Positions 9,376-17,878 of a stretch of 20,211 bases of DNA are shown here, one piece after another. The stretch is taken from IMG/VR virus record IMGVR_UViG_3300033233_000193, positions 1 to 20,211 of that record, one strand, 5' to 3'. The notes under the pieces are model-generated. The model saw only the letters and a list, made by a program, of their open reading frames with translations, did not search any database and was not told where the DNA came from. Positions within the stretch are counted from its first letter, which is position 1; every line of letters begins with the position of its first letter. The DNA is from a virus. The translations under genes were made by a program, and so were the position numbers.

Positions 9376-10533
9376 ATGAGCGAACCCCTTTCGACGCCGG
9401 CGCCTGCCGCGACGGAATCAGACGTAGACACGTACTCGGCCAGTCAAGCGGCCGTGATTGTCGGCGACATGGGCTTGTACCGGGAAACACGGCGAGCCGA
9501 ACGCGCCGGCAAACCCTACGAGGATGTCGAGGTTGCCACCGATCGCGAGGGCGTCTCGACCATTCTCGAGGACGAACCCGCGGCGCCGGCCGCGGAGGCG
9601 ACACCGAAGGAAGCGGCTGCGGCCCTTCCTGAGAACCGGAAGACACGGGCGCAACGGGAGCAAGATCGGATCAATACCGCGATTCGAACCGCGGTCGAAG
9701 CGGAAACGAAATCGCTCCGCGATCAACTCGCACGGTTCACGGCTCCGCTGGCGCCGGCTGGCGATCCACGAACCGCGGAGGCTCCGAAAGCGCCGACGCC
9801 GCTCGAGGAAATCCAACGCTATCAGGCGATGCCGAACGCGCCGCAGCCGGAGGATTTCGGCACGGACGCGGATTATCGGGCGGCGCTCCATCTCTTCATT
9901 ACCGACACGCGCAGCGAGGAACGCACAATCGGCGCGCGACAACAAGAACTCCATCGGGAGTTCGCGGCCGCCCAGGACCGTCGGATTGATACGTTCCTTC
10001 ACCGTTTCACGGAAGCGAAGAAGATCCCGGGGTGGTTCGAGAGCATCTCGCCGGAGGTGCGGGCGATCCGTCCTGCGAGCGGCATGGATGCCGCAAAAGA
10101 GCGCGTTGGCGCTCTCAATGTGCTGTGGGATCACGTGTACGACTCGCCACACCTGGCGAAGCTGTCGAGCTACTTCAGTCAACACCCTGCCGAGCTCCGT
10201 CGGTTTGAAACGATTCCCGACGATATCAAGGCTCTGCCGCGGCCGATGTGGGTCGACAAGCACAAGGAACGCATCGCGCAAGAGTTCGCCATTCTCGAGC
10301 GGTCGCTCGGAGGATCAAGCGCGCCATCGGCGGCGGCTCGAGCTCCCGCGGCGGTCGTTCATTCTGAAGTCAAACACGTCTCTAGTGCGCCGGAACCTGT
10401 CGAGACGCTCGGCCGTCGGCCTGGCTCGCTCGCGGATCCGATCAAGGAAGCCGTTCGCACGGGAGACATGGGCGCATATCGCAAGGCACGGCTTGCCGAG
10501 CGGATCGCCGAAACACAAGGATCTCGACGATGA
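9376..10533 (+). CDS. Scaffolding-like head assembly protein
   Basis: A 385-residue acidic, mostly helical protein between portal and coat, the standard place for the P22-like scaffold that directs procapsid assembly and then exits. Residues 1-80 are low-complexity and Pro/Ala-rich. The middle is charged and helical (ENRKTRAQREQDRINTAIR; a later segment TRSEERTIGARQQELHREF), and the C-terminus is basic. A motif, GDMGxYRxxRxAER, occurs near both ends (residues 30-43 and 363-376). ATG 9376 is chosen because the upstream 33 codons are Arg-rich and cross the hairpin. The ribosome site is weak. The stop overlaps the coat gene ATG. Assignment rests on position and composition; no scaffold domain is directly recognisable. 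Confidence 0.72.
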   Translation: MSEPLSTPAPAATESDVDTYSASQAAVIVGDMGLYRETRRAERAGKPYEDVEVATDREGVSTILEDEPAAPAAEATPKEAAAALPENRKTRAQREQDRINTAIRTAVEAETKSLRDQLARFTAPLAPAGDPRTAEAPKAPTPLEEIQRYQAMPNAPQPEDFGTDADYRAALHLFITDTRSEERTIGARQQELHREFAAAQDRRIDTFLHRFTEAKKIPGWFESISPEVRAIRPASGMDAAKERVGALNVLWDHVYDSPHLAKLSSYFSQHPAELRRFETIPDDIKALPRPMWVDKHKERIAQEFAILERSLGGSSAPSAAARAPAAVVHSEVKHVSSAPEPVETLGRRPGSLADPIKEAVRTGDMGAYRKARLAERIAETQGSRR

Positions 10534-11894
10534 AAAACTGGACACAGCGTCCGCGGTGGACGTTCGTGCTGTCGACGGTGATTGCTCTGATCGTGGCGCT
10601 CGTCTGTCGTCACTATCAGGTCTTCGACGACGGCTCGGGCGTCTCGCACGCGGCGAACGTCTTCGCAACGACCGACTGGCTCGTGATGGAATCGCTGGAT
10701 ATCTTGCTCAACAAGATGGCGATCGGCCAGTACTTCAACATGGACGACAACGACCAATTCGAGCAAGCGTTTGCCGTTGGTCCGACGATTCGAAAGAAGC
10801 TCCCGCAGCGGTTCCTCACGCGGGATGGCCTCGGTTACAACCCGCAAGGGTTGAACCGAATCACTACAACGATTTCGGTCAATCAGGTGTTCGGGATCGA
10901 TTTCGAGTGGGACTCGTACGAGAAGGCGGTCAACATGGAGCGCGGCGAGGCTCAGTTGCGGAAGGAATACATTGAGCCGGCGATGGCGCAGTTGACGCAG
11001 GAAATCGAAAGCCGGTGCGCGCTCTGGGCGTATCAGAACGCCTCGGCGATGGTCGGGATTCTGGGCACGGATCCGACGGACTTTGATTCGAGCTCGGCCT
11101 CCTGCCGACAGAAGCTCGTCGAGCTCGGCTGTCCGGTTGGGAAAGATCGGTGCATGGTCGTCACGCCGTCGATCATGCGCACGCTCAAAAAGTCGGCCGT
11201 GTCGTACTTCAACCCGGTGACGGACATTTCGAAGCAGTTCCGCACGGGGATCGTGGGGTCGGGCGACGGGTTTGAATGGTACGAGTCGGTGTCGCTCTAT
11301 TCCCATACGGCGGGCACCTGGGCCGGCGCGGTCACGGTGAAGGGCGCGGGGCAGTCGGGATCGTCGCTCACGATCACGGCGACCGCGGGCGACACGTTCA
11401 AGCGCGGCGACAAGTTCAGTATGGCCAACGTGAACTCGGTGAATCCGGGCACACGTCGGAAGGTGGGGGCCGCGGCGAAAACCTTCACAGTGCTGAACGA
11501 TCCGCAGTTGACGGCGGCGGGCGGTGGCGTCGATGTGCTGTCGATCTCTCCGGCGATCTTTGGACCGGGCTCGCAGTACCAGAACGTCGATGCGTTGCCG
11601 GCGGATGCCGCGGCGCTCACGCTCTGGCCGGGCACGGCGGCACCGAACGGCAAGAGCGGTACGATCTCGCTGGCGTTGCATCCTGACGGCTTTGCGCTCG
11701 TCGGTCTGCCGCTCGAGGTGCCGAAGGCGGCCGAAGTCGGCGTGATGAAGCGCGATCCGGAAACGGGGATCGCGGTCGCGTTCGTGCGCATGTTCGATCC
11801 GATTCAGCGGAAGATGGTCAATCGGTTCGATATCCTGCTCGGCTTCGGAAACTACTACAGCGACAATTGCGCGGTCGCATTGGCCGGAGCGTAA
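10530..11894 (+). CDS. Major capsid (coat) protein, P22 type, with N-terminal hydrophobic segment
   Basis: A 454-residue P22-type coat protein that forms the icosahedral head. The body matches the P22 coat pattern: an N-terminal helix at DWLVMESLDILLNKMAI, a long helix region around EPAMAQLTQEIESRCALWAY, and an inserted segment with TFKRGDKFSMANVNSV, like KRGDKISFAGV in P22 coat. Unlike the usual family start, the first 42 residues add a membrane helix (about 11-26, FVLSTVIALIVALVC) with positive charges before it and a possible signal-peptidase site SHA before residue 42. ATG 10530 overlaps the scaffold stop and has AAGGA at 10517-10521, so the extension appears genuinely translated. The next in-frame ATG (10686) would cut into the conserved helix. 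Confidence 0.9.
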   Translation: MKNWTQRPRWTFVLSTVIALIVALVCRHYQVFDDGSGVSHAANVFATTDWLVMESLDILLNKMAIGQYFNMDDNDQFEQAFAVGPTIRKKLPQRFLTRDGLGYNPQGLNRITTTISVNQVFGIDFEWDSYEKAVNMERGEAQLRKEYIEPAMAQLTQEIESRCALWAYQNASAMVGILGTDPTDFDSSSASCRQKLVELGCPVGKDRCMVVTPSIMRTLKKSAVSYFNPVTDISKQFRTGIVGSGDGFEWYESVSLYSHTAGTWAGAVTVKGAGQSGSSLTITATAGDTFKRGDKFSMANVNSVNPGTRRKVGAAAKTFTVLNDPQLTAAGGGVDVLSISPAIFGPGSQYQNVDALPADAAALTLWPGTAAPNGKSGTISLALHPDGFALVGLPLEVPKAAEVGVMKRDPETGIAVAFVRMFDPIQRKMVNRFDILLGFGNYYSDNCAVALAGA

Positions 11895-11899
11895 GGACC

Positions 11900-12394
11900 A
11901 TGAACACTTACATCAAACGGCTCATCGGATCCCTTGCCGTCCTGCTCACTCTGTTCGGGTGTGTGGCGCCGGTGGGGGCACAAACGTATCTGACGGCCAC
12001 GACGCTCAATGGAGCGATTACGTCGACGTCGGCTACCACACTCACGTTGACATCGGCCTCAACCGTCACGACGACGACGCTCCTGTTTGTCGATCGTGAA
12101 CTGATGCGGGTCACGGCGATCAACGGCACCACGATCTCGGTGATTCGTGGGGCCGGCGGTACGCGAGCCGACACGCACGCGACCTCGGCGAACGTCTTGA
12201 TTGTCCATCCCGAGGCGGTCGTGAACGGGTTCGCGAACGAGGAACCGGCGGGATCCTGCACGGCGGCGAACTATCCGTACTTGCCGTTAGTCGATGTCGG
12301 CAGCGGGTTCCTATGGTCCTGTCGATCGGGCGTCTGGAAAGCGACCTCGTCTCAGCCAGTCACGTACAACAGCTTCTTGACCGGGAAGTCGTAG
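11900..12394 (+). CDS. Ser/Thr-rich decoration-like protein with signal peptide
   Basis: A 164-residue protein. Residues 1-27 form a classic Sec signal peptide: basic MNTYIKR, hydrophobic LIGSLAVLLTLFG, and a VGA site before Gln28. Cys21 could alternatively be a poor lipobox. The mature part is extremely Ser/Thr-rich (runs such as TSTSATTLTLTSASTVTTTT), followed by LLFVDRELMRVTAINGTTISV and VIRGAGGT. This beta-strand pattern is common in phage head decoration or cement-like proteins. It directly follows the coat gene (5-base gap), where decoration genes lie, and ATG 11900 has AAGGA just upstream. The two C-terminal cysteines could form a disulfide outside the cytoplasm. A secretory signal on such a protein is unusual. 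Confidence 0.7.
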   Translation: MNTYIKRLIGSLAVLLTLFGCVAPVGAQTYLTATTLNGAITSTSATTLTLTSASTVTTTTLLFVDRELMRVTAINGTTISVIRGAGGTRADTHATSANVLIVHPEAVVNGFANEEPAGSCTAANYPYLPLVDVGSGFLWSCRSGVWKATSSQPVTYNSFLTGKS

Positions 12395-12397
12395 GTG

Positions 12398-12568
12398 ATG
12401 CGAGGGATCGATCACAGCTACGCGCTTCTGGCGGTCGGGCTGTGGTTGATCTCTCTCTCGGCGGCCTGTCTCGTGATGGGAGACGTGGCGGTCGAAAGGC
12501 GATTCGTGGATCCGTACAAAACGCCCGCAGAAGAGGGGATTCATAGAGGATTCGGGTCGAACCGATGA
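12398..12568 (+). CDS. 56-residue single-pass membrane protein
   Basis: A small gene from ATG 12398 (GTG 12395 is a one-codon longer alternative) to TGA 12566-12568. It has one hydrophobic helix at about residues 9-28 (ALLAVGLWLISLSAACLVMG), then a polar, charged C-terminal domain of 28 residues. It overlaps the next ATG (ATGA), indicating coupled translation. The function is unknown; it forms a string with three other membrane-protein genes. Confidence 0.6.
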   Translation: MRGIDHSYALLAVGLWLISLSAACLVMGDVAVERRFVDPYKTPAEEGIHRGFGSNR

Positions 12569-12753
12569 CGCTTCGGACCGTCATCCTCGTGGTCTTCATT
12601 GAGGCGATTGTGCTGTTAGCGGCCGTGGCACTGCTCGAGGACTGGTGTATTGATCGACGGGACTATGCGCCGGGCTACAACACGTATCGGCTGGTCCGGT
12701 GTATCGATGCGCCGTCGTATCCGGCGCCACATATCCGACAGCTGACGCCGTGA
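12565..12753 (+). CDS. 62-residue single-pass membrane protein with Cys-containing tail
   Basis: ATG 12565 overlaps the preceding stop. An N-terminal membrane helix (VILVVFIEAIVLLAAVALL, residues 6-24) is followed by an approximately 38-residue polar domain with two cysteines (EDWCIDRR and VRCIDAP) and several Tyr/Pro residues. If the tail is periplasmic the cysteines could form a disulfide. The layout resembles spanin-like or accessory membrane proteins, but there is no specific match. Its stop overlaps the next gene's GTG. Confidence 0.6.
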   Translation: MTLRTVILVVFIEAIVLLAAVALLEDWCIDRRDYAPGYNTYRLVRCIDAPSYPAPHIRQLTP

Positions 12754-13070
12754 CCTCGCGCGGGTGGCGACTGCTGTTCCTGCTCGCGTTCCTGACCTTC
12801 TGTCGGGTCTTCGAATGGCGGTCGGCGCTCTCGGTGTGGCAGTCGGCCTCACTCATCTCGACGGAGTCGATTCGTGCGCATCTGCATTATCGGAACGCGC
12901 TGGTTCGGGCGGGGCGGTGGGGAGAAGCCTTAGATCAATGCGACATCTTAGCGCGCTTACGGCCCGACTCGAACCCGCACGAACGCTTGTTGATCTGGCG
13001 GGCGTGTGCGCCCTTGTCGTCGGAGCGTACGTCTGGGCGTGTTGGGGAGAAACCGTCTTCGAGGAAGTGA
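12750..13070 (+). CDS. Membrane helix plus TPR protein resembling the C-terminal part of TMTC/DUF1736 proteins
   Basis: A 106-residue protein from GTG 12750 (GTGA overlap). It has one membrane helix (WRLLFLLAFLTFCRVF, about 6-21), then EWRSALSVWQSASLISTES and a tetratricopeptide-like helix pair (RAHLHYRNALVRAGRWGEAL, 42-61, and following). In bacterial and eukaryotic TMTC/DUF1736 membrane proteins, the last helix is typically followed by a W-W-containing linker and then RAxxNxGxxLxxxGRxxEA repeats. This protein matches that junction from memory. The last 44 codons overlap the start of the next gene in another frame and are low-complexity. It therefore looks like a detached C-terminal portion encoded ahead of its partner. 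Confidence 0.55.
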   Translation: MTSRGWRLLFLLAFLTFCRVFEWRSALSVWQSASLISTESIRAHLHYRNALVRAGRWGEALDQCDILARLRPDSNPHERLLIWRACAPLSSERTSGRVGEKPSSRK

Positions 13071-13969
13071 GTCCATTCGTGGTGAGGTTCCCTCCCTGGC
13101 AAATCGGCGCGATCACCGATCTCCCGAATGCCCTCTCGAGGGCCTCGTTGTATTGGCCGCAGTCCTTTGCCCTGCAACATCTCGTGAGCCTCGGGATCCA
13201 CCTGGCGAATGTCGGGTTGCTGTGGGTGTTCCTCTGGCGCGCGGCGTGTCGCTGGCCGGTCTGTTGTCTCGCGGCGTCGCTCTTTGCACTCCATCCACTG
13301 GGGAGCGAAGCGGTTGTGTACCTGGCGGCGCGCGGGTCATTACTTGCCACGACCGGGCTCCTGATTGGGGCGATTGGGCTTGTCTCGCCCTCCCGGGTCG
13401 GTGAAGTCATCGCAGTGGTCGGATTGGGGATCGCCGGACTTTCGCACAGTGCGACCGCGGCCTCGGCGATCGTGCTGTTTCCGTTGGTCGCCTGGTGGGC
13501 GCGGCGGCGCGTCTGGCTGATCGTGGATGTGGTCTTCGTGCTCGGGGTGTTCTTTTGGATTCCTCCCACGGAAGGTGACGCGGTGATGGGCTCGGCGGGT
13601 GCGTTTCTCCTGCGGCAGGTCGGGCACGCCGGATGGTTACTCGTGATGGCGATGGCGCCGCTGAATTTGAGTCTCGAACTGCCGACGGTGAGCGCGGGCG
13701 TCTCGGTGGCGGTGGCCGGCATGCTCCTGATCGCCTCGTGGGGGCTCTGGCTGGCGCGGCATGACGTCGACGGTCGGGCGCGGCTGTTTGGATGGTTCTG
13801 GGGCTTCGGGGCGCTCCTGCCGCGGTTGGTCGTGCCGCGGTTCGAAGGGCTACACGAACGGCACGCGTACCTCGCGCTCGTGGGCTGGATGTTGCTCGCG
13901 GCGCTTCTGTTGGAATCGGTGATCGCTCCTCGTGGGGAGCTCGAGAAGGGGGTTATGGCTCATGGGTGA
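12938..13969 (+). CDS. Polytopic membrane protein, TMTC/DUF1736-like (GT-C glycosyltransferase fold)
   Basis: A 343-residue polytopic membrane protein with about eight to ten hydrophobic helices. Family-like landmarks are LFALHPLGSEAVVYLAARG (115-133), matching the LFALHP..TEAVAYISGR segment of TMTC/DUF1736 proteins; PLNLSLELP (241-249), matching their P.xLSxDxP loop; and HERHAYLALVGWMLL (306-320), matching ERxxYLPxxG. Upstream, HLVSLGIHLANVGLLWVFL fits the HLxNxxxHxxN helix. Such proteins are polyprenyl-sugar-dependent O-mannosyltransferases in eukaryotes and are presumed glycosyltransferases in bacteria. ATG 12938 is chosen before the first helix; the ribosome site is weak. The expected N-terminal acidic loop is present only as GETVFEEV, so activity is uncertain. 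Such a gene within a phage structural block is unusual. Confidence 0.65.
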   Translation: MRHLSALTARLEPARTLVDLAGVCALVVGAYVWACWGETVFEEVSPFVVRFPPWQIGAITDLPNALSRASLYWPQSFALQHLVSLGIHLANVGLLWVFLWRAACRWPVCCLAASLFALHPLGSEAVVYLAARGSLLATTGLLIGAIGLVSPSRVGEVIAVVGLGIAGLSHSATAASAIVLFPLVAWWARRRVWLIVDVVFVLGVFFWIPPTEGDAVMGSAGAFLLRQVGHAGWLLVMAMAPLNLSLELPTVSAGVSVAVAGMLLIASWGLWLARHDVDGRARLFGWFWGFGALLPRLVVPRFEGLHERHAYLALVGWMLLAALLLESVIAPRGELEKGVMAHG

Positions 13970-14664: not shown

Positions 14665-14939
14665 CCTCTGAAATGCTTCGCGTGAAACGGGTCAGTCTCA
14701 TGGCTGGCATCAAAACCGGGATCTCGCCTCCATCGAGTTTTCATAATCTGTCGGTCGGGAACGCGACAACCGACGATCTCGAGCTCCACACGACGGACGA
14801 CAACGATCTCGAGTTCCTCGTGATTGAGGCGGGATTTGAGCGGCCGATTCCGACGTCGCGGCGCTTGTTCAGTTACGACAGCGTCGCGTTTTGGTTGAAA
14901 GCGAAGGTATCAGGTACGGCGGTGCTCCTATGGTACTGA
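14661..14939 (+). CDS. Hypothetical protein upstream of the fiber gene
   Basis: A 92-residue protein from ATG 14661 (ATGA overlap). It is strand-rich with a polar centre (NATTDDLELHTTDDNDLEF) and an aromatic C-terminus (YDSVAFWLKAKVSGTAVLLWY) that would suit a small beta domain. Its last ten bases overlap the fiber gene start, so the two are probably coupled. It may be a fiber-associated or virion protein; no family was recognised. Confidence 0.6.
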   Translation: MTSEMLRVKRVSLMAGIKTGISPPSSFHNLSVGNATTDDLELHTTDDNDLEFLVIEAGFERPIPTSRRLFSYDSVAFWLKAKVSGTAVLLWY

Positions 14940-16840
14940 CGTGGCGTCGGTGGCTCCTCCTCGCGTTCCTCCTCGCCGTTCCCCTACGCCTCGAGGCGCA
15001 ACCGTTCCCGATTCCCGCGGTCGTCACGGCCTCGCTCTCCTCGAGCTCCTGTCCGGGGACCGGCTGTGTTCAGATGGCCGTCCGCGGGTACGCCGGCGGC
15101 GGGGTACAGGTTGGCGGGTCGTTCACGGGAACTCTGACCTTCGAAGGGGCGATCGGGACGGATTGCGCCTCAGCCACGTACAAGCCGGTGAACTTCACGC
15201 CGGCCGACAGCACCACGCCACAAAGCACCACAACGGCCGCCGGGCTCTTTCAGGGGCCGATCGCCGGGCTCTCCTGCCTTCAGGTGCGGTTCTCCGCGTA
15301 CACGTCTGGTACGGCAACGGTGGGCCTCCTGGCGGCCTTCGGGGGGAGCGCCTCGAGGACGACCGGGGGCGGGTCGCCGGCGGGGCCGTCGACGTCGGTG
15401 CAGTTCAACGACGGGGGGTCGTTCAACGGCGTGGCGGCCTTTGAAATCGACAAGGTCAATTCGACTCTCACGGCGACCTCGGACGGCGTCAACCATCCAA
15501 CTGACTGGAAGCTCGGCGCCTCCGTGCGGGCGCATGTCAACGAAAACGGGGAATTCTCGAATTTCGGCTTTACCGGCAATGCGACCGATGCGACGTTCGG
15601 CCGGAATAACGGCGTCAATATGACCGGCGCCGGCGGAAATAATACGTTCTTCGGAACGAACGTCGCGAGCACGGCGAACGCGACCTCGAGCGGCGGGTTG
15701 ACGCTCGTCGGGCAGAGCGCGGATGTCACGAGCGCCAGCGGGACACTTGCGACCGCGGTCGGCTACTCCATGAAGGTGCCGACGAGCTCGGCCGGGTTCG
15801 GTTTCAACGGGACCGGCGACCGGGCGCAACAGTTCCTGATTTCGCTCAACAACGGCAACGGGAGTCTCGGCCCGCAAGTAGTCGCGGCGGCCTCGAGTGA
15901 TTCCGTCGACGACCGGCGGAATTGGTCGATTACCGGGGTGTGGGCCACGGCAACCGATGCGACACGGAAGGGGCGGGCGCTTTTTCAGGCGTGGGATGCG
16001 ACGACGGCGCGCGAGTTCATGCGCGGGGAAACCAACGGCACGAACGCGATGATCGGGTTTCTCGGGGCGACCGCGTCACTCGCGCAAACGGGCGATCTCG
16101 CGTCGGCGCTCACGACGTTCGGGTTGATGACCGGGTCGCCGACACTCGCGGACACGAAAGTCTCGTTTACCGACAACGTGACCGGGAACGCGGCGACGAC
16201 ACAGCACGGGTATCAAGCGAAGGGGACCGGGTCAACGTCGACGTTCTACCGGAGCGACAACACGCAAGCCGCGGTCACGGATGCAAACCTGTCGGTTTCT
16301 GACGTCACGACTAACAACGTCACGAGTACCGCGCACGGGTTCGCGCCGAAGTCGCCGGCGAACGCGGCGCAGTTTCTGAACGGGGCGGCGACGCCGGCCT
16401 ATGCCAGCGTGACGGATGCGAACCTCTCGACGTCCGATATCACGACGAACGACTGCACGGCGGCTAAGCACGGATTCGCGCCGAAGGGGGACGGCAACGT
16501 CAATCACTTCCTGAATGGGTCGTGCGCGTACTCGGCGGCGACGGCCACGGTCGCGATCACGGAAACCGAGATCAATTTCGATACGTGCGGGGTGTCGGTC
16601 GGCACGATTCACGCCTCCTTCACCTGTACCGCGACGGTCACTGATGCCGGGGTCAGTGGGACCAGTAAGATCATCGTGCTCCAAAGCGGTGCGGCGCCGA
16701 CGGGTCGACAGGCCGACGAAAACGACATGGATCCGCTGGCCTGTAATGCGCTCGCGGGCGCGGGATCGTTCACGGTGATTTGTAAAGCGCTCAACGGGCC
16801 GGCACACGGCAAATACAAGCTCAATTACTTGGTGGGGTAA
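14930..16840 (+). CDS. Tail-fiber-like protein with Sec signal peptide
   Basis: A 636-residue fiber-like protein. Residues 1-23 are a signal peptide: MVLTWRRW, hydrophobic LLLAFLLAVPL, then RLEA before Gln24. There is no alternative start after it. The mature region begins with a Cys-containing beta domain (two Cys pairs) and a Gly-rich linker PAGPSTSVQFNDGGSFNG, a spacer widely seen in phage fibers. A long Gly/Ser/Thr/Asn-rich shaft follows. Near residues 448-536 are repeats with HGFAPK and FLNG typical of receptor-binding fibers. The C-terminal domain (SKIIVLQSG to YKLNYLVG) looks like a compact beta head. ATG 14930 overlaps the previous gene by ten bases; GTG starts upstream are less likely. 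The signal peptide is unusual for a virion fiber. Confidence 0.75.
   Translation: MVLTWRRWLLLAFLLAVPLRLEAQPFPIPAVVTASLSSSSCPGTGCVQMAVRGYAGGGVQVGGSFTGTLTFEGAIGTDCASATYKPVNFTPADSTTPQSTTTAAGLFQGPIAGLSCLQVRFSAYTSGTATVGLLAAFGGSASRTTGGGSPAGPSTSVQFNDGGSFNGVAAFEIDKVNSTLTATSDGVNHPTDWKLGASVRAHVNENGEFSNFGFTGNATDATFGRNNGVNMTGAGGNNTFFGTNVASTANATSSGGLTLVGQSADVTSASGTLATAVGYSMKVPTSSAGFGFNGTGDRAQQFLISLNNGNGSLGPQVVAAASSDSVDDRRNWSITGVWATATDATRKGRALFQAWDATTAREFMRGETNGTNAMIGFLGATASLAQTGDLASALTTFGLMTGSPTLADTKVSFTDNVTGNAATTQHGYQAKGTGSTSTFYRSDNTQAAVTDANLSVSDVTTNNVTSTAHGFAPKSPANAAQFLNGAATPAYASVTDANLSTSDITTNDCTAAKHGFAPKGDGNVNHFLNGSCAYSAATATVAITETEINFDTCGVSVGTIHASFTCTATVTDAGVSGTSKIIVLQSGAAPTGRQADENDMDPLACNALAGAGSFTVICKALNGPAHGKYKLNYLVG
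16271..16537 (+). repeat. 45-residue fiber repeat, two copies plus a degenerate one
   Basis: Two in-frame copies spaced 135 bases apart encode TDANLSxSDxTTN...HGFAPK...FLNG. The second starts at 16406. A weaker third copy (HGYQAK) lies just upstream around 16165-16270. Such repeats are common in distal fiber shafts and likely reflect recombination or duplication. Confidence 0.7.
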
Positions 16841-17878
16841 ATGGTTCGCTTCTATCTCGATCCGCGGTTAGTGCTCCTCCTCGCTACGCTCCTGCTCTCG
16901 GTGGGGTCGGTCGCGCTCTGGGTGATGCTCGGGCGCTCGTGGAAAGGGGTTGCAAAAACGGCCTCGCTCGCGCTCCTGTGGTTGGCCTGCACGGCGGCGA
17001 TCATTCAATCGGGCGCCTCGGCGGATCTCTGGACGATTGACGCGACGTCGAAAGCCGGTCGGGTGTCCCTCTATAACACCGCGGGAACCTTTATCGGTGA
17101 TACGACAACGCCATTCTTCGTGAAAGTGCAGTCGGGGGCCGCGGCGAATGTGCTCACGGTGGACGCGACCTCGCTCGCGGCACGGGCGACGCTCTACAAC
17201 ACCGCGGGTACTACGCTCGGCGACACGACGACTCCGCTCGTCTTCAAGCAACAAAGCGGCGCCTCGAGCGATCAACAGACAATCGACGCGACATCGAAGG
17301 CGGGGCGCGTGTCGCTCTATAGCTCGGCGGGTGTGGAAATTCCTGGGGTCGGGCAGCTTCAGACGTTCGGGATCTCGTCGACGTTCACGCCGGCGGCCAC
17401 GCCGACGGATCTCGTGATTATCGAAGGGAGTTCCACGAAAACCATCAGAATGGTTTCGATGAACATCTGTACGACGAACACGGCGGCCGGGTCGCAAGAA
17501 TTCTTCTTGATCAAGCGCAGTGCGGCCGACACGACGGGGACGTTTGTTTCGGCGGGCACGCCGGTGCCGCTCGATTCGAACGATGCGGCCTCCACGGTGA
17601 ACCGCGTCGGGCACTTTACGGCAAATCCCGGCGCGCTCGGTACGGCCGTTGGGACCATCGCGCGCTATCGTGTCGCGTCAACCGTGGCGATCCCGGCGAC
17701 GTTTGCCGGCATTCGTGAAATCACCTGTCAAGACATGATGCCGTGGTACTCGCAGGCGCACGCGGATCAACGGATTACCCTGCGGGGCGTGGCGCAAACG
17801 CTCGCGATCAATTTCAATGGCGTAGCGCTCGTGGCCGGACAAACGCACACATACACGATCGTCTGGACGGAGGAATAA
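16841..17878 (+). CDS. Membrane-anchored repeat protein of the virion block
   Basis: A 345-residue protein starting immediately after the fiber stop. Two N-terminal hydrophobic segments (about residues 9-30 and 40-55) are separated by a basic loop (RSWKGVAK). Three tandem 41-residue repeats then begin at residues 56, 97 and 138, each with QSGA, DATS and LYxxAG landmarks. The C-terminal half (170-345) is a strand-rich domain with Ser/Thr/Gly and four cysteines, ending QTHTYTIVWTEE. The repeats resemble short beta elements in phage fiber or decoration proteins. The double membrane segment suggests insertion or an uncleaved signal. It follows the fiber in a likely operon and is probably a virion accessory or receptor-interaction protein, by inference. 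Confidence 0.65.
   Translation: MVRFYLDPRLVLLLATLLLSVGSVALWVMLGRSWKGVAKTASLALLWLACTAAIIQSGASADLWTIDATSKAGRVSLYNTAGTFIGDTTTPFFVKVQSGAAANVLTVDATSLAARATLYNTAGTTLGDTTTPLVFKQQSGASSDQQTIDATSKAGRVSLYSSAGVEIPGVGQLQTFGISSTFTPAATPTDLVIIEGSSTKTIRMVSMNICTTNTAAGSQEFFLIKRSAADTTGTFVSAGTPVPLDSNDAASTVNRVGHFTANPGALGTAVGTIARYRVASTVAIPATFAGIREITCQDMMPWYSQAHADQRITLRGVAQTLAINFNGVALVAGQTHTYTIVWTEE
17006..17341 (+). repeat. Three tandem 123-bp repeats
   Basis: Units start at 17006, 17129 and 17252 (the last is shortened). They encode QSGA...DATSxAxRxxLYxxAGxxxGDTTTP with clear divergence between copies, so they are old repeats under protein-level selection rather than a recent tandem expansion. Confidence 0.8.

Follow-up and report, generated by a model that had tools for sequence, protein, structure and literature searches.

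Two overlapping genes of P22-like environmental phages very probably encode one TMTC-like GT-C protein, split and in reversed order

The arrangement of two overlapping genes, here named A and B, in P22-like environmental phages is real, conserved and unusual. Judging from sequence comparison, the two genes very probably encode two parts of a single TMTC-like GT-C protein, which has been split and whose parts stand in reversed order. The pair was studied in the IMG/VR record IMGVR_UViG_3300033233_000193, in a stretch of 20,211 nucleotides which was analysed as a whole (hereafter the window); the window genes described below from the coat gene to B are on the plus strand. With a probability of about 0.5, the pair is read as a two-subunit, periplasm-facing glycosyltransferase using a host lipid-linked sugar. 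Phage surface-modifying enzymes are usually stand-alone genes, whereas here a polytopic enzyme appears to be cut between its last two membrane helices. The retention of its reversed parts across very diverged phages would represent a natural experiment on the splitting of membrane enzymes.

Anatomy and homology of the two halves

Gene A (12750..13070) has a GTG start which overlaps the stop of the preceding gene, and it encodes 106 aa comprising a single N-terminal TM helix, equivalent to TM11, a W-x(6)-W linker and one TPR-like repeat. Gene B (12938..13969), with an ATG start and an SD-like GGGAG upstream, encodes 343 aa forming a GT-C membrane domain, the counterpart of TM1-TM10 of TMTC-like proteins. 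The two genes share 133 nt (12938..13070) in two reading frames, B being in the -1 frame of A. Such an out-of-frame overlap had been described in the first-pass annotation, together with landmark segments of the TMTC family; both ORFs were recovered at these coordinates, and the segments are present in B (FALHPLGSEAVVY, PLNLSLELP and ERHAYLA) as well as in A (FEWRSALSVW and GRWGEA). Outside the overlap, the GC3 of the A and B parts (0.77 and 0.79, with 0.82 in the coat gene) is coding-like. A 407-codon open frame is rare, occurring at 0.13% in 2.1 kb Markov-1 sequence.

No family was assigned to window B by Pfam, PHROGs or NCBIfam. In its AF2 model (pLDDT 78.7, pTM 0.82), the protein has the GT-C membrane fold: the top 41 rows of the structural comparison are all GT-C enzymes or relatives (Z 9.6-17.9), and the first non-GT-C row has a Z of 4.7. 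The model aligns with PMT (Pmt4) over 287/343 residues (Z 17.9, rmsd 4.7 A) and with ArnT at Z 14.6, in agreement with the initial view of the large protein as TMTC-like; Foldseek E-values are weak by themselves, the best being 0.016. The fold of B is thus shared with the PMT and ArnT enzymes (6p25, 9i5k, 5ezm/5f15), from which the phage pair differs in having no MIR domain, in receiving its last helix from another gene and in an identity of 11-12%. When solved structures were searched by sequence with the bacterial profile, matches were swamped by TPR proteins.

Bacterial single chains of 514-1400 aa were collected by means of a genome scan in which B was used and A was not. On about 30 of them, the B match extends over approximately residues 30-380 and the A match lies directly behind it, the order always being B then A. 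Window A alone matches residues 388-459 of the single chain L094 (i-Evalue 6.7e-8) and the equivalent position in others, while profiles built solely from phage sequences match bacterial single chains down to 1e-41 for B and down to 1e-17 for A. The claim that A is the section which normally follows B is borne out by these placements, since both halves match adjacent parts of the same chains. In L094 the B match gives way to the A match between residues 374 and 375, and predicted helices at 354-373 and 379-404 flank this junction. An analysis of TMTC proteins located ERxxY between TM9 and TM10 (PMC7801869). Numbered in the same way, the two L094 helices are TM10 and TM11; because the split falls between them, B corresponds to TM1-TM10 and A to TM11 together with the beginning of the TPR domain. 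The Pfam TPR matches of A are below the cut-off (TPR_19 with E 0.062 in the window, TPR_17 with 0.0018 in L011 and TPR_11 with 3e-5 in L083), and phage A aligns to true TPRs of the bacterial chains.

The Pfam family TMTC_DUF1736 (PF08409), searched at permissive E-values, was matched neither by A or B of the window nor by L005, L011, L045, L083 and L086, and it was likewise unmatched in the five bacterial relatives scanned. For this reason, "TMTC-like" is used here in the sense of architecture and motifs, not of Pfam membership. The likeness to TMTC/DUF1736 proposed at first sight consequently holds for the architecture, the motifs and the GT-C fold, but not for the Pfam DUF1736 profile.

Recurrence in phages and origin of the reversed order

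Scans of IMG/VR using single sequences, namely window A, window B or the connector protein, gave no match, and relatives were reached through the coat protein, which provided 80 related viral loci, and through profiles. Among the coat-linked loci, tblastn with window B identified L005 (1e-8) and L011 (1e-6), and further A/B searches added L045. The B profile contributed L083 and L086, plus L082, a near-identical copy of L005. A scan with the alignment of bacterial single chains revealed nine more viral contigs (L130-L138), which constitute one group termed marine-type, a name given to these closely related contigs and not based on sample metadata. The gene pair pointed out in the first-pass annotation therefore recurs across further viral contigs of IMG/VR. 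A is upstream of B and overlaps it in 15 of the 16 contigs, the sixteenth (L134) beginning inside the region. Seven diverged lineages share the order A before B, and in 7/7 the frame of B is -1 relative to A. No native-order viral gene was found, including in the scan by bacterial single-chain alignment, and the last viral scan returned zero new lineages; since a single short conserved pattern underlies the viral scans, further forms could have escaped them. Among cultured phages, searches with window B, L083 B, L005 B and a bacterial single chain brought up no relative. The literature searched, in which few subscription papers were covered, contained nothing relevant on a phage TMTC or a phage-encoded protein O-mannosyltransferase.

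Pairwise dN/dS (Nei-Gojobori) within the marine group ranges from 0.08 to 0.16 for B and from 0.09 to 0.30 for A, and this purifying selection implies that both chains are maintained in the group. In the B trees all phages are placed on one side of one branch (support 99/98 and 97/94). Phage B sequences thus form one clade, which fits a single origin, and the swapped order probably arose once. The similarity of hydrophobic proteins is easily inflated and B has no significant Pfam match, both of which would favour a chance resemblance of hydrophobic helices; together with an assembly artefact, this explanation retains practically no credibility. Examined separately, A and B fall next to each other on about 30 bacterial chains, the same order is present in contigs of many metagenomes, and dN/dS is well below 1; the independent matches, the recurrence and dN/dS refute it in practice.

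In 297 bacterial genomes of one phylum, matches were obtained in 165, and single chains were common. The open frames in which the listed matches lie measure 371-1219 aa, with the shortest one close to the edge of its contig, and no split copy was found among these matches. Bacterial GT-C/TPR genes were observed in tandem arrays at L158, L159, L160, L161 and L162, with two to four copies, some of which are near-identical. Tandem copies abut or overlap in several genomes, and in the L161 pair there is an ATGA overlap with a -1 frame. A fragment spanning such a tandem junction reads TM11-TPR then TM1-TM10 in the -1 frame, like the phage layout. A possible origin is hence that a phage captured a junction at which the 3' TPR part of a host gene runs into the 5' membrane part of its tandem neighbour.

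The constant -1 frame of B in all seven lineages, with a B frame that is open well into A, could also be taken as a sign of -1 frameshifting, which would fuse A to B in a true circularly permuted chain running from TM11-TPR to TM1-TM10. This is very unlikely, as no slippery heptamer is conserved, the only one being a chance-like TTTCCCC in L083, and as ordinary ATGA-type overlaps also give -1, tandem bacterial genes showing the same. Of the "circular permutation plus gene split" which had been put forward, the split and the swapped gene order are upheld, but no single-chain permutant is encoded.

Catalytic-site residues and expected activity

Phage motifs were compared against 19 bacterial chains on the basis of the TMTC motif criteria, where M1 is DD in the first outer loop, M4 is KE(T/Q)xxT, with Lys to the donor phosphate and a metal-binding Glu, and M7 is ERxxY in the fifth outer loop. 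M1 reads EE in the window, ED in L005, L011, L045, L083 and the marine group, and DD only in L086, which means that the first Asp has become Glu in six of the seven phage lineages. A simple pattern applied to 57 bacterial chains gave 51 DD and one ED (L139), five chains being unreadable by the pattern. L139 (G001:C12:632741-633718) is a single-chain relative with the phage-like ED, which the tree places apart from the phages. As regards M4, Ser and Ala replace Lys and Glu in the window, while both residues are retained by L005, L011, L045, L083 and the marine group; in L086 the two positions read KW, without Glu, and the M3 Arg is missing as well. The M4 Lys (K198 in L094 numbering) is conserved in every phage except the window. 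The M7 of the window is ERHAY (307-311), matching ERxxY, and the other phages mostly have EH. B of L011 is without the C-terminal M7 region; at L011 9400-9493 gene B terminates prematurely, ahead of the M7 loop, and its tail is unrelated (WIARNVKILKKTLPR), which reflects either truncation or an assembly error.

The histidines of H..N...H (L094 positions 95 and 102) are kept in nearly all phages, one being changed to Arg in L005, HPLxxEAVAY is retained with few changes, and P284 is retained in nearly all phages. Moreover, the M5 acidic residue, the M3 Arg and most of the conserved His are found in L005, L011, L045 and the marine group. The window copy is the most eroded phage copy, with the longest branch within the phage clade; since several of its catalytic-site residues are lost, this copy may itself be inactive.

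The main rival to an active transferase is a dead or interfering complex, that is, a TMTC-like assembly which retains the fold without the chemistry or has a dominant-negative effect, blocking or redirecting the host single-chain relative, or a membrane receptor block leading to superinfection exclusion. The Asp to Glu change in M1, the EE of the window and its loss of the M4 K/E, the absence of the M4 Glu and the M3 Arg from L086 and of the C-terminal M7 region from L011 are all in line with a dead complex, and potential targets are available, one or more host relatives being present in 165/297 bacterial genomes. However, M4 K/E, the M5 acidic residue, the M3 Arg and most His are intact in L005, L011, L045 and the marine group, and strong purifying selection acts on marine B. 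Furthermore, the replacement of Asp by Glu is conservative, and the bacterial chain L139 also has ED. A dead complex is viewed as an unlikely explanation, and an active glycosyltransferase in most lineages as slightly more probable than not.

Bacterial single-chain GT-C/TPR proteins are usually annotated as TPR proteins. These chains (e.g. L094 from Bryobacterales and L087 from Myxococcales) contain a GT-C domain, a last TM helix and TPR as in the phages, and HPLxxEAVAY, H..N...H and the M4 K are conserved in them and common to the phage version. They consist of one chain in native order, with several TPRs, DD in M1 and ER in M7, whereas the phage version is made of two reversed genes with one or few TPRs, ED or EE in M1 and mostly EH in M7. 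The metazoan O-mannosyltransferases TMTC1-4 are single chains with 11 TM helices, catalytic loops and an outer-face TPR domain (PMC7801869). Phage A/B share this architecture, and counterparts of M1, M3, M4, M5 and M7 can be aligned; unlike TMTC1-4, they comprise two chains, do not match Pfam TMTC_DUF1736, mostly do not have DD in M1 and have no long TPR array.

Genomic neighbourhood and proposed mechanism

The P22-type coat protein of the window (10530..11894; phrog_283, 9e-52) is related to P22 coat proteins of cultured phages. Directly after it, an exported Ser/Thr-rich protein is encoded (11900..12394), with a signal-peptide-like N terminus (MNTYIKRLIGSLAVLLTLFGCVAPVGA-QTY) and PHROG tail or virion-structural matches (phrog_1101, 1e-6). 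A 62-aa single-TM protein with no family match (12565..12753) is located just before A, with a GTGA overlap at the A start, and by position it shares a transcription unit with A. Signal-peptide-bearing equivalents precede A in other A/B phages. According to a simple rule, a signal-peptide protein also follows the coat in 38/72 phages without A/B, and the association between the presence of A/B and a signal peptide on the upstream gene did not reach significance; the rule applied was crude and overlooked the window itself. Immediately behind the coat, about half of the 80 related loci encode a Thr-rich protein whose signal peptide is of the Sec type (frequently ...A-QT); these proteins are related to tail or virion-structural PHROGs and represent a widespread exported protein of uncultured P22-like phages.

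In the mechanism proposed here, A and B would together make up a TMTC-like GT-C protein of two chains, B supplying TM1-TM10 and the catalytic loops and A supplying TM11 and the TPR on the periplasmic face. Their position suggests joint, late synthesis from the structural-gene cluster, and A:B would most probably come together in the inner membrane of the host; the formation of a two-chain complex is considered likely. Across the family, the complex would take a sugar from a polyprenyl-phosphate donor of the host and pass it to a periplasmic acceptor. The donor must be host-derived because no GT2 or GtrA gene was found in the phage records, neither GtrA (PF04138) nor GT2/GtrB (PF00535) having a match in the 8 records, some of which are fragments. 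Two acceptors can be envisaged, the exported Ser/Thr-rich protein whose gene lies just upstream and a component of the host envelope. The former is doubtful as an acceptor, and the idea is one of adjacency only, because such exported proteins are also common without A/B.

P22-type phages are known to carry GT-C-like proteins that act in seroconversion, and the combination of a P22-type coat with a GT-C fold would be compatible with serotype conversion, in which a GT-C analogue of GtrC/GtrII alters the host surface polysaccharide and blocks further adsorption. The GtrABC/GtrII clusters of P22-type phages likewise include a phage-borne polytopic GT-C-like enzyme; A/B differ from them in that no GtrA/GtrB partner was found, in their late structural locus and in the presence of a TPR subunit. 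In addition, B has no Pfam GtrII match. A Gtr-type seroconversion cassette is disfavoured because GT2, GtrA and an integrase were not found in the phage records, some of which are fragments, and serotype conversion is on the whole rather improbable.

Returning to the proposed two-chain glycosyltransferase, the enzyme may serve these phages to modify proteins that are exported, or the surface of the host, in the course of infection. The sequence context points to a putative GT-C activity in the late head-gene cluster, beside exported phage proteins, and opens to testing what protein export and glycosylation contribute to phage infection. In the most specific form of the model, a phage lineage would have stably turned a one-chain TMTC-like protein glycosyltransferase into a two-chain, order-swapped enzyme with shifted active-site residues (DD->ED, ER->EH), which is expressed with the head genes and attaches O-glycans to a phage protein exported to the periplasm. 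This form is improbable as a whole; if it were true, it would constitute a phage-encoded membrane protein-glycosylation system.

Further observations concern the structural proteins. The P22-type coat carries a hydrophobic N-terminal extension in the window (10530-11894), in L045 (5938-7344) and in L083 (2288-3640). In tblastn, the extension of the window coat is included in the alignments to L002 and L025, which begin at query residue 1, while the L005 and L011 coat alignments begin at the usual place. At 14930-17878 of the window, two structural-cluster genes have a signal-peptide-like or two-TM N terminus (MVLTWRRWLLLAFLLAVPLRLEAQP; MVRFYLDPRLVLLLATLLLSVG), and because of these N termini several head/tail-cluster proteins look exported or membrane-bound.
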